Shown piece by piece: positions 42,629-50,073 of a DNA stretch of 64,000 nucleotides (within the stretch, counting starts at the first letter, position 1; each line of letters begins with the position of its first letter). The translations under genes were made by a program, and so were the position numbers. The DNA is from Akkermansia muciniphila. Lineage in GTDB: Bacteria > Verrucomicrobiota > Verrucomicrobiia > Verrucomicrobiales > Akkermansiaceae. The DNA lies in the NCBI RefSeq assembly GCF_018709685.1, contig NZ_JABDHQ010000010.1, forward strand, positions 1 to 64,000, written 5' to 3'. Below the pieces are notes generated by a model that saw only the letters and a program-made list of their open reading frames with translations, was not told the DNA's origin and made no database searches.

Positions 42629-43600
42629 CTATCGCTTCTCTGCTCCAGATTTCACGGGAAGCTGGACGAACTCCTTGGGGTCCTTCATGTCCATGCCGGA
42701 AGCCTGCCAGTTTTCCCACACCCGCCAGCCGCTGGTCATCATCTGCTTGGCCAGGGGATAACGTTGCGCAGAGCCCAGCACCACAATGATCATGCGCTGG
42801 GGGTAAATCACCTCCGTGCCCGTCTGGGGACTGCGGCGGGAAATGGCGTTGCGCGTGACGCTGAGCAGCAGGCAGGGGCCGGCGGCGCGGGAGGTGCCCG
42901 CCTTGATGCCGTCCACGCCGGGGGAGCTCATGAGCTTGTTGTTGTTGGAGATGTCGTACATCGTCATTCCCTTGGTCTGGGACTGCACGCCGATGCGGCG
43001 GCTCGCCTGGGAGACAATGTAGCAGAAGGCCGGATTCTGCATGCTGTACGCGCCCAGCAGGGCCATGTCCAGCGCGCAGGATTCGGAAACGGAGTTGCCC
43101 GCGTCCAGCCCGTGGGGGGCGGTGAAGCGCGTCTTGGACATTTTCAGGGAGCGGGCCAGATTGTTCATTTCCGTCACGAAGGCGCCAATGGGGGAACCGC
43201 CGCCACGGCGGGAGACCAAATCACGGCCCACAAAGGAGGCGACCGTCAGGGCGGACACGTTGTCCGAGCCCAGCAGGGTGGAGTACAGCGCGTCCCGGAG
43301 CGTCAGGCGGTCGCCCGGCTGAAGGTCCATGGGATTGCCGGCGCGGAGTCCGAATGCCTCCTGGGGAACGGCGATGAAGGTGTCCAGCGGCAGGCGCGTG
43401 CGGGCCACCCAGTCCAGCGCGACCATGGCGGTGGCTACCTGGGAAAGGCTGGCTACTGGCCTTCTGGCTTCCGCATTGGAGCTGAAAAGGAGTTTGCCGG
43501 AATTGGCCTCAATGGCGATGTAACTGGGCTTTTCCTGCGCCCGGGCGGAGAACTGGAATACACAGGCCAGGGTCAGGAGGAATAGAGATAGCTTTTTCAT
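42629..43600 (-). CDS. D-alanyl-D-alanine carboxypeptidase (S11) homologue with altered active site
   Basis: The 323-residue protein has a signal peptide and the peptidase S11 fold. The second motif SDN (S112-N114) is intact. The nucleophile motif SxxK reads S51-L-S-Q54, so the general-base Lys is Gln. The third motif KTG reads KAG (233-235). With Lys missing, classic DD-carboxypeptidase activity is doubtful; it could bind peptidoglycan peptides or be a regulator. I use the ATG at 43600 (MKKLSLFLL), which gives a canonical signal peptide; earlier starts do not. Confidence 0.8.
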   Translation of the reverse strand: MKKLSLFLLTLACVFQFSARAQEKPSYIAIEANSGKLLFSSNAEARRPVASLSQVATAMVALDWVARTRLPLDTFIAVPQEAFGLRAGNPMDLQPGDRLTLRDALYSTLLGSDNVSALTVASFVGRDLVSRRGGGSPIGAFVTEMNNLARSLKMSKTRFTAPHGLDAGNSVSESCALDMALLGAYSMQNPAFCYIVSQASRRIGVQSQTKGMTMYDISNNNKLMSSPGVDGIKAGTSRAAGPCLLLSVTRNAISRRSPQTGTEVIYPQRMIIVVLGSAQRYPLAKQMMTSGWRVWENWQASGMDMKDPKEFVQLPVKSGAEKR

Positions 43601-43773
43601 GGCGGGACCGGCGGGATAGTGCCCGTTCCCCCCGCATTTGGAAAGTCTAAAATGTTTTCCATGCACCACTTATATGTCATGACACGGAAAAACGCATTGA
43701 CCTTTCGCCTCCTATCCTATTTGTTGGAGGAAGCCGTCCCCTCCAACGGGAGCGTTACGACCTGCCCAGCGCC

Positions 43774-44184
43774 ATGACCAGCATTCAATTCTTCTACAGC
43801 CGGGACTTCCCGGGAAACGCCCTGCGCTCCAACGCCCGCCAGGCGCTGGAGCATCTGGGCATGAATGTGGAAATACAGGAGACGGAAGCCTCTCCGGGAC
43901 AGGCTGAATGCACGCTGCCCGCCCTCGCCATTGACGGGGAAATCGTCGTTTCCGGCGTGGAGCCTTCCGTGCGTGAGCTGGAACTCCTCTTTGAAGACCG
44001 CGCGCGGATGCAGGAAGAGGAATCCTTCTGCGGAGCGTGCGGCATGGAGTGCGGCGGCATGAATGGTGCGGCGGGCTGCGCCGGGTGCGGGAAGAACGGA
44101 GGGAACCCCGGCATGGCGGGCAAAATCATCGGCTTTGTGATCCTGCTCATCATCCTGTTCACGGCGGTAAAAATCCTCTCCTGA
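43774..44184 (+). CDS. Cys-rich protein with thioredoxin-like N-terminus and C-terminal TM
   Basis: The 136-residue product has a small redox-like N-terminal region (LPALAIDGEIVVSGVEPS), a dense Cys/Gly stretch (about 88-108: CGACGMECGGM then CAGCGKN), and a hydrophobic C-terminal segment (about 114-134). It has no signal peptide, so it is probably a tail-anchored inner-membrane protein. The Cys pattern suggests metal or disulfide binding. I recognise no family beyond the thioredoxin-like beginning. Confidence 0.6.
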   Translation: MTSIQFFYSRDFPGNALRSNARQALEHLGMNVEIQETEASPGQAECTLPALAIDGEIVVSGVEPSVRELELLFEDRARMQEEESFCGACGMECGGMNGAAGCAGCGKNGGNPGMAGKIIGFVILLIILFTAVKILS

Positions 44185-44617: not shown

Positions 44618-45487
44618 ATGAAACCGGTCATCGGATACACGCTGGGCGACCAGTCGGGCATAGGCCCGGAAGTCATTTCCGCCGCGCTCGCCTCCGGAGA
44701 ACTCCCGGAGGAAGCGGAATACCGCCTCATCGGCGCCAGAGCGGACGTTCCGGTGGGAAGGCCTAATTCTGAATCCGCCAAATACGCCTTTGAACATCTG
44801 GAACAGGCTGCACAAGCCCTCCGGGAAGGAGCCGTTGACGCCGTGGTCACCGCCCCCGTCTGCAAGGAGACCCTGCATGAAGCAGGGTTCCGCTGGCCCG
44901 GACAGACGGAATTCTTTGCGGAACGCCTGGAAACGGACAATTACGCCATGTGCCTGACCGGAAAACGGCTGACGGTGGGCCTGGCAACCATCCATACGTC
45001 CCTTCAACGCGTGCCGTCCCTGCTGAACACCGCGGAGCTGGTCCGCATCGGGACCCTGCTGAAGGATTTCTGCCTCCGCAAGGGAATCCGCCGCCCGCGC
45101 ATCGCCCTGGCGGCCCTGAACCCCCATGCGGGAGAGCACGGGGCTTTCGGGAATGAGGACGGAGCCATCATTGCCCCGGCCGTGGAACAACTGGGCATTT
45201 CATGCCCGGATGCCGTGTTTGACGGTCCTGCCGTCCCGGACTGCGTATACCGTGACGCCGTGGAAGGCTGCTATGACGCCGTGCTGGCCCCGTACCATGA
45301 CCAGGGTCTGATTCCGCTGAAACTGGTGGACTTCCATACCGCCGTCAACGTCACCCTGGGCCTTCCGCGTCCCCGGCTGAGTCCTGACCACGGAACCGCT
45401 TTCAACCTGGCGGGCACCGGAAAGGCCAATCCTTCCAGCACCATCCATGCCTTCCAACTGGCCGTCCGGATGGCGCAGCCGCGTTAA
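44618..45487 (+). CDS. pdxA: 4-hydroxythreonine-4-phosphate dehydrogenase
   Basis: The 289-residue product matches PdxA, which oxidises 4-phosphohydroxy-L-threonine in PLP synthesis. Motifs: GDQSGIGPEV at the start, VVTAPVCKETL, AALNPHAGEHGAFG (metal His), YHDQGLIPLKL (metal His) and SPDHGTAFNLAGTGKANP. It is about 40 residues shorter than typical PdxA (about 330), chiefly in the loop after residue 45, but all key residues are present. I start at the ATG at 44618, which gives the canonical N-terminus; the upstream frame is not conserved. Confidence 0.9.
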   Translation: MKPVIGYTLGDQSGIGPEVISAALASGELPEEAEYRLIGARADVPVGRPNSESAKYAFEHLEQAAQALREGAVDAVVTAPVCKETLHEAGFRWPGQTEFFAERLETDNYAMCLTGKRLTVGLATIHTSLQRVPSLLNTAELVRIGTLLKDFCLRKGIRRPRIALAALNPHAGEHGAFGNEDGAIIAPAVEQLGISCPDAVFDGPAVPDCVYRDAVEGCYDAVLAPYHDQGLIPLKLVDFHTAVNVTLGLPRPRLSPDHGTAFNLAGTGKANPSSTIHAFQLAVRMAQPR

Positions 45488-46458
45488 CGGCCCTCTTCCT
45501 TCCGGAGTTTTTCCCGCCACACCCGGGCGCGCCGGGCCGGAAAGGACATCCAGTATCGAATCGTTTCCTCCTCCAGCGGATCGGCCTTCTCTCCCTCCTC
45601 CTGCTTCAGCAGGAGAGGAAAGACCGTCAACAGGTCTCCGATGGAATTTTCCATCAACTGCGGGTCATGTTCCTGCTTTTGAAGCCAGCACCATTGTTCA
45701 GGAGTCAACGGAGGAAGTTTGGAAATTCTTTCCGTCTCCTCCACCTTACGATCCGCACTGCGCCGGATCAGCAGAAACTTCCTTTCCCGGGAAATCCGCG
45801 AAACCGCATCTTTCATCATCTCCAGAACCCCGTCATTCCAACAGCTTTCCAGGGCCTTCTCCAGGCGCCCGTTGACCAGCGGGTCATTCCTCAGCATGGA
45901 AGACAGGGAATATTCATGAGTCAATTTCCAGGCCAGCAATTTTTCATAGGAGTCACCGTCCGGGGAGGACGGCAAGGGCAATTCCGCGCCGGCGATCAGG
46001 TCATCCAGGGAATCAATCGCTGTCTTGGAGACCCACATCAGCCTGCCCAGCGCGGCAAATCCCTCTTCCGCCTCTTCATGGGTTATGACGCCGTCATTTT
46101 CAAGTTCCGATAGGGAGACGGTCTTCTCCTCCCCGTCCTTTTCCCACCTTTCCTCCAATTTCCTGTACAACCGGACTTCCGCGTCAGCCATTCGGCACCA
46201 CTCCCTCGTGGCAGGCTCACCGGACATGAACGCTTCCCGCCACGACTTTTCCAGCCGATCCGCCTCCCGGTTCAATTCCTCCACCACTTTTTTACAGGAG
46301 GCGGAGTCCTTCACCCGGCTGCTGATCGTCTCCACAGCCCTGGCAAATGCATCATCCTCTACCATGTCCTCCACCACATCCACCATCCGGACGCCGGAAC
46401 GGGCGCTACCGCAGCAAAGGCACCCGGCAAGAAGCGCCATGCAAAACAATTTCATCAT
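45484..46458 (-). CDS. Hypothetical helical lipoprotein
   Basis: The 324-residue product begins with a lipoprotein-like signal (MALLAGC, Cys at about residue 13). The rest is charged and largely helical, with conserved-looking Trp and Glu residues. I recognise no family. It is convergent with pdxA, overlapping its stop by four bases, and no terminator is visible between them. Confidence 0.6.
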   Translation of the reverse strand: MMKLFCMALLAGCLCCGSARSGVRMVDVVEDMVEDDAFARAVETISSRVKDSASCKKVVEELNREADRLEKSWREAFMSGEPATREWCRMADAEVRLYRKLEERWEKDGEEKTVSLSELENDGVITHEEAEEGFAALGRLMWVSKTAIDSLDDLIAGAELPLPSSPDGDSYEKLLAWKLTHEYSLSSMLRNDPLVNGRLEKALESCWNDGVLEMMKDAVSRISRERKFLLIRRSADRKVEETERISKLPPLTPEQWCWLQKQEHDPQLMENSIGDLLTVFPLLLKQEEGEKADPLEEETIRYWMSFPARRARVWREKLRKEEGR

Positions 46459-46599: not shown

Positions 46600-46640
46600 C
46601 AATCATTGCACCTTACTTGCCCGCAAGGTGCGCACCGTTC
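46600..46640 (+). ncRNA. Possible rpsF leader hairpin
   Basis: The 5' leader of rpsF can fold as GCACCTT paired with AAGGTGC (46608-46631), followed by a CACCGTT. This resembles in outline the S6:S18-binding leader that autoregulates some rpsF genes. The partner rpsR is not adjacent, and I can only suggest the match. Confidence 0.3.
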
Positions 46641-46670
46641 GCACGACACATTTCTAATTATCACAAGACC

Positions 46671-46955
46671 ATGAGAAATTACGAAGCTCTTATCGTATTC
46701 AACATGAAGGGTACGGAAACCCCCGTTGAGGAGTTGATCAATACCGTAGCCGCTACGATGAAGGAAGAAGGCGCCGACATCACCAAGACCGAAAACGCCG
46801 GACGCCGTGAATTCGCCTATGAATCCAACCACCTTTCCGCCGGCCAGTATGTGACCTACACGTTCTCCGCGGAACCTTCCGCCATCAGGACCATCCGCGA
46901 ACGCCTCCGCCTGAATCCCCAGATTCACCTTCAGTACTACAAGGTGATCGCCTAA
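46671..46955 (+). CDS. rpsF: 30S ribosomal protein S6
   Basis: The 94-residue product starts MRNYEALIVFNMKG, and the core (GRREFAYESNHLSAGQYVTYTFSA) is typical of S6, which binds S18 in the small subunit. It is not followed by ssb or rpsR as in many bacteria, but by a terminator, so rpsF is monocistronic here. Confidence 0.95.
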   Translation: MRNYEALIVFNMKGTETPVEELINTVAATMKEEGADITKTENAGRREFAYESNHLSAGQYVTYTFSAEPSAIRTIRERLRLNPQIHLQYYKVIA

Positions 46956-47077: not shown

Positions 47078-48718
47078 TTAATAGACATTGGCCGCTTTTG
47101 AGGCGATGTTCCGCAGCAACTGGCGGATGGGGGCAACAGGAGGCAGATTTTCCACGCCGTATTCCCTGGCAATTTTTTCCATGTGGGGAAAGCTGATCCA
47201 CGTGCTGCCTTCCTTATCTTCCCACACGGCAATGCGCAGGGGCAGTTCCGTAGCAATGCCCGGATTTCCGAGCATCAGATTGGTGCCTACCTTGGGGGAG
47301 CCAAAAATGACCACCTTGGAGGGAGGCATTTCCAGCCCCGCTTCACGGGCATTTTTTCCGTGGTCAATCCTGGCGAAGACGGGGATGGATTTTTCCTCCA
47401 GAATCTTTTCAATGCGTTCCATGGTTTCATCCACGCCGAACACGCTTTCATAAAGATACAGGGAATTGTCATCCAGCTGGCCGGAGCCGAGCTTGGGATC
47501 CAGCGCTCCGGCAATGCGGCGCGCCAGGTTGGTCAGGTCCACGCCTTCCTTGTTCGCCGTCAGGGTCACGCACACCAGTTCGGAAGGGGCCGTGAACCGG
47601 CAGATGTAGGAGGAAAAGCCGGGAACGCCGCCCTTGATGTCCATCAGGCCCTTGTGGTGCGGGAACTGCCAGCCCGCCATGGCCGGGACGATTTTTCCAT
47701 TGTCCAGGCGGATGGGCTTGTAAATCATGTCCCGGTGCTTTTCATCCTTCACCAGGATGGAGCCGGCCAGGCAAATGTCCCAGAAGCTGATTTCCTGCGG
47801 AGTGGACCAGATGTCGGAAAAGCCGCGCAGGGAGGAGCGCGCAGGCGGAGGAACGGATTTCACGGCCCCGTCCTTCACGGCATATCCCGCCGCCGTTTCC
47901 GCCGGGTTCACATATCCCACACGGGATTTGAAGAGGGTATGCTCATTGTCATGCCCACGCACGTTATCCTGCTGTACGGCTCCCAGATCCTTGCCGAACA
48001 CCGTGTGCTGAAGGCCCAGGGGCTGGAACTGGTTTTCCCGGACAAATTCTTCATAAGGCATGCCCGCTACCGCATCAATGACCATGGACAGGAGCAGGAA
48101 GTTCGTGGCGCTCTGGCGCACGTCCGTTCCGGAGGGGAATTCCAGGCCGTTCAGCCTGACCAGGGAAAGGAGTTCTCCCGGATCATAATCCCTACCCATG
48201 TCAAACTGGGGGGATTTCCTGTAATCCGGAATGCCGGAAGAGTGCTGCAACAGCTGGAGCACGGAGACGTTCTGCCAGGCTTCCGGCAGCCCCGCCACGT
48301 AGCGGGAAATCTTGTCATGGATGTCCATTTTCCCTTTCTCCACCAGCTGGAAGGCGGCTATGGCGGCATATCCCTGGGAGATTTCCGCCGCAGGCCACAG
48401 GGTGTTGGTGGAAGCGAGAAGGCCGGTTTCCGCATTGGACACGCCGTAACCCACTACGCGGGGAATGTAGGGGGCCTGGACAATCGCAAGGGTCATGCCG
48501 GGAATTTTTTCCTCCTGCATGAAATCGTAAATCAACTGGTCCATGGACTGGCCCAGGTATTCTACCCTGGAGTCTCCACGCCCCTGGGACGGGAGATGAA
48601 TGGCTGCTGAATCTTGAGTGGACATGTTATTGGGGGTTTTGTTTGCATGCGCGGGGATGCCGCCCAGCATGCACGCGCATGCGAGTATCTCCCCTGTTAA
48701 CCTGAACGAATTATTCAT
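47078..48718 (-). CDS. Degenerate beta-lactamase-fold protein fused to DUF302
   Basis: The 546-residue exported protein starts with a signal peptide (about 1-25). Residues about 55-410 align with class C beta-lactamase/serine hydrolases (for example QLVEKGKMDIHDKIS, LQLLQHSSGIPDY, FQPLGLQHT, KGGVPGFSS). The catalytic residues are lost: the SxxK position reads E112-I-S-Q115, and YxN reads Q202-S-A204. Residues about 420-530 are DUF302-like (FGVDETMERIEKILEEKSIP, IDHGKNAREAG, VVIFGSPKVGTNLM, LPLRIAVWED). I know of no described fusion of these two. I start at 48718, which begins the signal peptide. Confidence 0.8.
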   Translation of the reverse strand: MNNSFRLTGEILACACMLGGIPAHANKTPNNMSTQDSAAIHLPSQGRGDSRVEYLGQSMDQLIYDFMQEEKIPGMTLAIVQAPYIPRVVGYGVSNAETGLLASTNTLWPAAEISQGYAAIAAFQLVEKGKMDIHDKISRYVAGLPEAWQNVSVLQLLQHSSGIPDYRKSPQFDMGRDYDPGELLSLVRLNGLEFPSGTDVRQSATNFLLLSMVIDAVAGMPYEEFVRENQFQPLGLQHTVFGKDLGAVQQDNVRGHDNEHTLFKSRVGYVNPAETAAGYAVKDGAVKSVPPPARSSLRGFSDIWSTPQEISFWDICLAGSILVKDEKHRDMIYKPIRLDNGKIVPAMAGWQFPHHKGLMDIKGGVPGFSSYICRFTAPSELVCVTLTANKEGVDLTNLARRIAGALDPKLGSGQLDDNSLYLYESVFGVDETMERIEKILEEKSIPVFARIDHGKNAREAGLEMPPSKVVIFGSPKVGTNLMLGNPGIATELPLRIAVWEDKEGSTWISFPHMEKIAREYGVENLPPVAPIRQLLRNIASKAANVY

Positions 48719-48869
48719 GGCGCCTGTTTTATAAGACCCCATTTCCTGCATACGGTTCATTCAGCTTGTCATCAGCATTCCCAAAATGCCGCAGAAAAAA
48801 AATACAACACCACCCTCTCCCCTCCTCCGGGGAAGAGTTCCGCCAGGCCAGGTTCCCGCCACGGAAGGA

Positions 48870-49478
48870 TTACAGGGACACGAAGTTTTCCAGCAGCTTT
48901 ACGCCCAGCTTCTGGCTTTTTTCCGGATGGAACTGGGTGGCTACCAGATTCCCGCGCCTGATGGCGGCGGCAAAGCGCACGCCGTACGTGCAGAAGGCGG
49001 CCGCCAGGGAGTCATCCTCCGGACGGGGATAATAGGAATGCACAAAGTAGAAGTACGGGTCCTCCCCCATGCCCTTCCAGACGGGGTCCGCAGGATCGGA
49101 GAGGGTGAGCCGGTTCCATCCCATGTGGGGCACCTTGAGTTCCGATTCCGGGAAACGGACAACGCTTCCCTTGAAGATGCCCAGCCCGGGCACCTCCCCG
49201 TCTTCCTCACCGCTTTCAAAGAGGACCTGATAACCTACGCAGATACCCAGGAACGGCCTGTCCCGTTCTATCCAGGTCCGGATCAGCGGCACCAGCTCCT
49301 GGCGGCGCAGTTTTTCCGCACAGTCCCCAAAGGCTCCCACGCCCGGCAGCACCAGATGGGTGACGCCTGCCGCATCTTCCGGCGTGCGGACCAGATGCCC
49401 GTTCACGCCGGCGGCCTCAAAGGTGTTCAGAACGCTGCGGAGGTTGCCCGCGCCGTAATCAATCACGCCGAGTTTCAT
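48870..49478 (-). CDS. hisH: Imidazole glycerol phosphate synthase, glutaminase subunit
   Basis: The 202-residue protein provides ammonia from glutamine to HisF. The glutaminase nucleophile motif is ICVGYQVLFES (Cys), and the His-Glu pair is in FHPEKSQ. It starts MKLGVIDYGAGNLRS, typical of HisH. The start at 49478 is four bases downstream of the hisB stop, so the pair is coupled. hisF and hisA are not in the window. Confidence 0.93.
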   Translation of the reverse strand: MKLGVIDYGAGNLRSVLNTFEAAGVNGHLVRTPEDAAGVTHLVLPGVGAFGDCAEKLRRQELVPLIRTWIERDRPFLGICVGYQVLFESGEEDGEVPGLGIFKGSVVRFPESELKVPHMGWNRLTLSDPADPVWKGMGEDPYFYFVHSYYPRPEDDSLAAAFCTYGVRFAAAIRRGNLVATQFHPEKSQKLGVKLLENFVSL

Positions 49479-49482
49479 GGGC

Positions 49483-50073
49483 TTACAGCATTCCCTTGGT
49501 TGAAGGAAGGGTTCCGGCAGCCCTGGGATCAATGGCGGCAGCCTGGCGCAGCGCGCGGGCAATGCCCTTGAAGATGGATTCCGCGATGTGGTGGCCGTCC
49601 CGGCCGTAAAGCACTTCCACGTGCAGGTTGCAGCGCAGGTTGTTGGCCAGGGCGCGGCAGAATTCCTCACAGAGGGTCAGCGGAAAGTTGGGAGCGTCCG
49701 GCAGGCCGCCCTCCGGAATGCGGAAGACCACGTACGGGCGGTTGCTCAGGTCCATCACCACGCGCGTCAGGGTTTCATCCATGGGCAGGTAGGAACAGCC
49801 GTAACGGGCAATTCCCTTCTTGTCCCCCAGCGCGTTTTTGATGCATTCACCCAGAACGATTCCCACGTCCTCCACCGTGTGGTGGGCGTCCACGTCCAGG
49901 TCTCCCCTGGCTTGAAGAGTGAGGTCCGTCAGGGAATGGCGGGCCAGCAAATCCAGCATGTGGTCAAAAAACGCATGGCCCGTGGCGATAGCGGCGCATC
50001 CCGTGCCGTCCAGGTTCAGTTCCATGCTGATGTCCGTTTCACCGGTGACCCGTTTGCAAGAAGCGTTCCTCAT
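49483..50073 (-). CDS. hisB: Imidazoleglycerol-phosphate dehydratase
   Basis: The 196-residue monofunctional HisB catalyses the seventh step of histidine synthesis. The metal-binding motifs FFDHML and [11 protein letters not shown] are present, as are [10 protein letters not shown] and the rest of the repeat. The phosphatase half of the E. coli bifunctional enzyme is absent. It precedes hisH. Confidence 0.95.

Follow-up and report, generated by a model that had tools for sequence, protein, structure and literature searches.

A catalytically dead S12 domain joined to DUF302 in Akkermansia muciniphila and in relatives from at least two phyla

Introduction

Enzymes with the S12 fold, which include the class C β-lactamases (PF00144), bind D-Ala-D-Ala-type ligands. 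Solved examples are Flp (4gdn) and a Pbp-related β-lactamase (2qmi). DUF302 (PF03625) is a domain with no known function, and our literature search found no biochemistry for it. The closest solved DUF302 chain to the one described here, 7tj1, was deposited as a 'putative fluoride ion transporter CrcB'. Published sox clusters of Acidithiobacillia and Sulfitobacter include stand-alone DUF302 genes (PMC5037610, PMC11034169). The thiosulfate dehydrogenase (TSD) of Acidithiobacillus ferrooxidans forms tetrathionate and is clustered with sbp/doxDA/rhd (PMC6335251).

A full-text search returned no paper on a pairing of S12 with DUF302; co-mentions of DUF302 and β-lactamase concerned DUF3025 or a metal-resistance cluster, and literature matches to the domain name mostly referred to DUF3023, DUF3025 or DUF3029. 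Here, we describe such a fusion in a 64,000-nucleotide stretch of A. muciniphila DNA (contig NZ_JABDHQ010000010.1, positions 1 to 64,000), which is referred to below as the window. We compare the fusion with S12 enzymes, with other DUF302 proteins and with its own relatives.

Results

The fusion retains the S12 fold but no catalytic residue

The fusion gene lies on the reverse strand (47078-48718) and encodes 546 amino acids, from the ATG common to orthologues to the stop codon. A longer open reading frame (47078-48760, reverse strand, 560 amino acids) starts at the first ATG, at 48760, and residue numbers are counted from that codon. The gene is flanked by rpsF (46617-46955, forward strand) and by hisH/hisB (48870-50073, reverse strand). 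No sulfur genes were seen in the 10 kb examined. The segment 48644-48718 (reverse strand) encodes a leader, MNNSFRLTGEILACACMLGGIPAHA, that on inspection of the sequence is likely to be a Sec signal peptide. Comparable leaders are present in the alignment of other family members. The Akkermansia protein is probably exported.

As had been predicted, a β-lactamase fold and a DUF302 domain are found in one chain, and both Pfam matches exceed the curated cut-offs. PF00144 matches residues 74-417 (47510-48541, reverse strand; E 3.9e-35, 122 bits, cut-off 27), and S12 structural motifs such as H-x-S-G are kept. PF03625 matches residues 465-524 (47189-47368, reverse strand; E 4.9e-19, 68.4 bits, cut-off 23). 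The best matches among solved structures were 2qmi and 4gdn for the S12 domain and 7tj1 for DUF302. The DUF302 domain is full and has the D-H, F-G-x-P, L-P-L and W positions that the family conserves. It contains no cysteine; cysteines are present in another DUF302 subgroup. This was the one DUF302 domain found in the window genome. Whereas most DUF302 open reading frames detected in this phylum are short and stand alone, this domain is joined to a dead S12 domain. Two genomes of the same family as Akkermansia (G255 and G266) encode proteins of ~306-327 amino acids with two tandem DUF302 domains (L074, L075).

To read the catalytic positions, we aligned the protein with 23 S12-type relatives; Ser and Lys are both present in 21 of them. 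In the window protein, the SxxK position is E-I-S-Q (residues 126-129; 48374-48385, reverse strand) and the YxN position is Q-S-A (residues 216-218; 48107-48115, reverse strand). Ser is replaced by E126, Lys by Q129, Tyr by Q216 and Asn by A218. The original prediction had given exactly this reading, with all four residues gone, and alignment with solved structures yields the same SxxK and YxN assignments. At the HxG/KTG position the sequence is I-K-G (residues 375-377; 47630-47638, reverse strand). AlphaFold2 was run on seven sequences with a mean pLDDT of 39, and the model was not used; arguments about the S12 pocket are drawn from alignment columns throughout.

Besides the lost residues and the extra C-terminal domain, the fusions differ from S12 enzymes in a family signature, A-I-V-Q-A-P-Y-I-P-R (residues 92-101; 48458-48487, reverse strand). 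The signature is invariant among fusions, and Q95-R101 are nearly missing from active S12 relatives. Further conserved residues specific to the family are H274, E288 and Cys397. The latter (47570-47572, reverse strand) is the sole cysteine invariant across all 14 fusions and is not conserved in active relatives.

Elsewhere in the window, the product of 42629-43669 (reverse strand) resembles S11 D-Ala-D-Ala carboxypeptidases (PF00768, 8.7e-33). Its SxxK position is S-L-S-Q and its KTG position is K-A-G; SxN (S-D-N) is kept and the catalytic lysine is seemingly lost here too. A small thioredoxin-like protein, rich in cysteine along one stretch and hydrophobic in a C-terminal segment, is encoded at 43774-44184 (forward strand; PF13192, barely above the cut-off). 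The protein encoded at 45484-46458 (reverse strand) has no Pfam family, and two tandem copies occur at the same place in relatives (L061, L062, L071).

Loss of the catalytic residues is ancestral to the fusion family

The original prediction called for a search for other proteins with the same two domains. Full-length homologues, 40-51% identical, were found outside Akkermansia, both in relatives within the Verrucomicrobiota and in Alphaproteobacteria. Two (G104 and G112) are from another genus of the same order and are 41-45% identical; one (G435) belongs to a different class of Verrucomicrobiota and is 51% identical. Plasmids of Novosphingobium resinovorum, Novosphingobium sp. P6W and Rhizobium sp. 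11515TR carry copies that are 44-47% identical, and a further alphaproteobacterial genome (G746) has a homologue at 40%. The fusion was present in 1 of 385 sampled alphaproteobacterial genomes. At E 1e-40, none was found in two further samples, of 247 genomes from the phylum of a Bacteroidales locus and of 246 from that of a Planctomycetia locus, in runs that had no positive control. Viral contigs scanned with the family alignment contained no relative, and the S12 matches among phage records were all weak.

No member of the family keeps any catalytic residue. The SxxK position reads EISQ, PISQ, PITQ/PVTQ, QMAR/QMTR or RMGE, such that Ser is replaced by E, P, Q or R and Lys by Q, R or E. YxN is QSA, LSA, DSA or DSR, with Q, D or L in place of Tyr. 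HxG/KTG is IKG, VKG, IEG or VTG, where Gly alone is kept. In the phylogenetic tree, all 14 fusions group together as one long-stemmed clade (support 100/100). Since every fusion is dead and all belong to a single clade, the inactivity is ancestral. Judged from the alignment and the tree, a single and ancient loss removed the catalytic machinery from the S12 domain of this family. Conservation is not especially high in the old catalytic columns; the Ser position lies in the 77th percentile of variability. Hence, these columns have not been turned into a new active site shared by the family. Separately, the Novosphingobium plasmids encode an S12-type protein outside the fusion clade (L129, L131) whose Ser and Lys positions are A and M; its catalytic loss appears to be independent.

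The original prediction knew of no described protein with this pairing. That statement holds in so far as we found no paper, but the arrangement itself spans at least two phyla. Both plasmid copies that have an annotation bear the label 'serine hydrolase'. As far as we found, the pairing is apparently undescribed and known only under that name.

The fusion is accessory but maintained in Akkermansia

The fusion gene is present in seven other Akkermansia genomes. The conspecific copy (G097) shares 99.3% identity and is just as devoid of catalytic motifs; the six others are 82-97% identical. In one genome (G017; L072/L004), an in-frame TAG interrupts the gene near residue 71 and the remainder is conserved. 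Pairwise dN/dS is ~0.05-0.14 across the protein and low in both domains, which argues that the chain is maintained. Sequence error and an intact SxxK in most orthologues had been named as outcomes that would overturn the prediction. Neither was found; the same-species copy lacks the motifs, as do all orthologues. A decaying pseudogene was likewise rejected, given conservation across species and the low dN/dS.

Most of the Akkermansia genomes searched lack the gene, G101 included. A remnant of ~40 residues occupies the same place in G054, and hisH and rpsF adjoin in G053 with no fusion gene between them. Nor did G101 yield a match to hisH or hisB at the thresholds applied, although both genes are present in other Akkermansia genomes.

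Sulfur genes adjoin the fusion in two lineages

In all three plasmid loci (both Novosphingobium and Rhizobium), the same conserved protein is encoded directly downstream of the fusion. Identity to the Rhizobium copy is 57-67%. Both of the copies that were scanned exceed the cut-off (300 bits) of the NCBIfam thiosulfate dehydrogenase model NF052225, with scores of 343.6 and 332.7 bits. An assignment of this neighbour as a DsrE protein was discarded; Pfam did not confirm it, and the NCBIfam name is thiosulfate dehydrogenase. NF052225 probably models the A. ferrooxidans-type enzyme, as both the name of the model and the sbp/doxD genes neighbouring its members suggest. The fusion is itself no TSD, and Akkermansia has no such neighbour. 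Relatives of the downstream protein on other plasmids occur together with DoxD, DsrE, TlpA-type thioredoxins and c-type cytochromes. In Methylocella, such a relative sits with a stand-alone DUF302. Because this was the sole case among the annotated neighbourhoods viewed, linkage between DUF302 and TSD-type proteins is only occasional.

The relative in G435 has a different sulfur partner. There, the gene order is ArsR-type regulator, fusion, rhodanese (PF00581, 4.1e-16). The G104 and G112 copies have no sulfur neighbours, and the G746 locus contains no clear sulfur partner. As the three plasmid loci represent one clade, the alphaproteobacterial sulfur linkage counts roughly once. No cell-wall gene was linked to the fusion in the loci examined.

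Discussion

The statement best supported by our analysis is that the fusion is an ancestral, probably exported S12 pseudoenzyme joined to DUF302. Regarding function, we tentatively favour a periplasmic protein that handles sulfur compounds, with a pseudo-hydrolase scaffold carrying DUF302, and consider this nearly as probable as its contrary. A sulfur role is favoured because two lineages have different sulfur partners next to the fusion and because published contexts of DUF302 point the same way. The dead S12 domain would be a binding or scaffold module that bears the C-terminal DUF302, and DUF302 would be the part that handles the ligand or is catalytic; the original suggestion that DUF302 is the ligand or active part is plausible. 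The protein may act in the periplasm on reduced or intermediate sulfur compounds, such as thiosulfate, polythionate or sulfane sulfur. Its partner would be thiosulfate dehydrogenase in Alphaproteobacteria and rhodanese in one relative. We infer both the sulfur role and the part played by each domain, and the Akkermansia protein may keep the role of its relatives. Against a sulfur role stand the Akkermansia neighbours hisH, hisB and rpsF, the G104 and G112 loci, and a window DUF302 devoid of the cysteines of the other subgroup. A more specific version is improbable. This would place the fusion in periplasmic thiosulfate/tetrathionate metabolism, with sulfane sulfur carried by Cys397 or a DUF302 site, and gut Akkermansia would process host-derived thiosulfate or tetrathionate.

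Other readings account for parts of these data. It is possible, if rather unlikely, that DUF302 has a non-sulfur function and that the pseudo-S12 domain serves structure or oligomerisation only, in which case horizontal transfer of mixed clusters would account for the sulfur neighbours. The patchy distribution, in 1/385 alphaproteobacterial genomes and a minority of Akkermansia, fits this, as do the Akkermansia, G104, G112 and G746 loci. However, different sulfur partners directly adjoin the fusion in two separate lineages, and stand-alone DUF302 is recurrent in sox clusters. The original prediction was of an exported sensor or binding protein, with peptidoglycan fragments or β-lactams as candidate ligands; on our reading of it, the dead domain would bind these without turnover. 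Inactivity, the exported look and the fusion to DUF302 agree with the general idea, and a complete S12 domain under selection would suit the D-Ala-D-Ala-type ligands of S12 enzymes. Conversely, Ser, Lys, Tyr, Asn and KTG, which contact such ligands, have been replaced; because the replacements vary across the family, the old binding site is not conserved. Nor does the protein have a signalling or membrane-sensor domain, and the only informative neighbourhoods point to sulfur compounds rather than the cell wall. The proposed ligands have found no support, and we regard a sensor of this kind as quite unlikely. Strong conservation elsewhere in the chain, including the signature, H274, E288 and C397, might instead reflect an S12 domain that is still an enzyme with a re-invented active site. 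Yet the columns that once held the nucleophile and the base are unremarkable or variable, which means that the old cleft was not merely refitted at these positions, and no new catalytic set is recognisable. This explanation is very improbable.

Our analysis shows that 'serine hydrolase' is a misleading name for this conserved family, which is a clear example of an S12 pseudoenzyme with ancestral inactivity and a distribution across at least two phyla. For DUF302, a domain of no known function, it offers a concrete and testable sulfur context, which may extend to a genus of the human gut.
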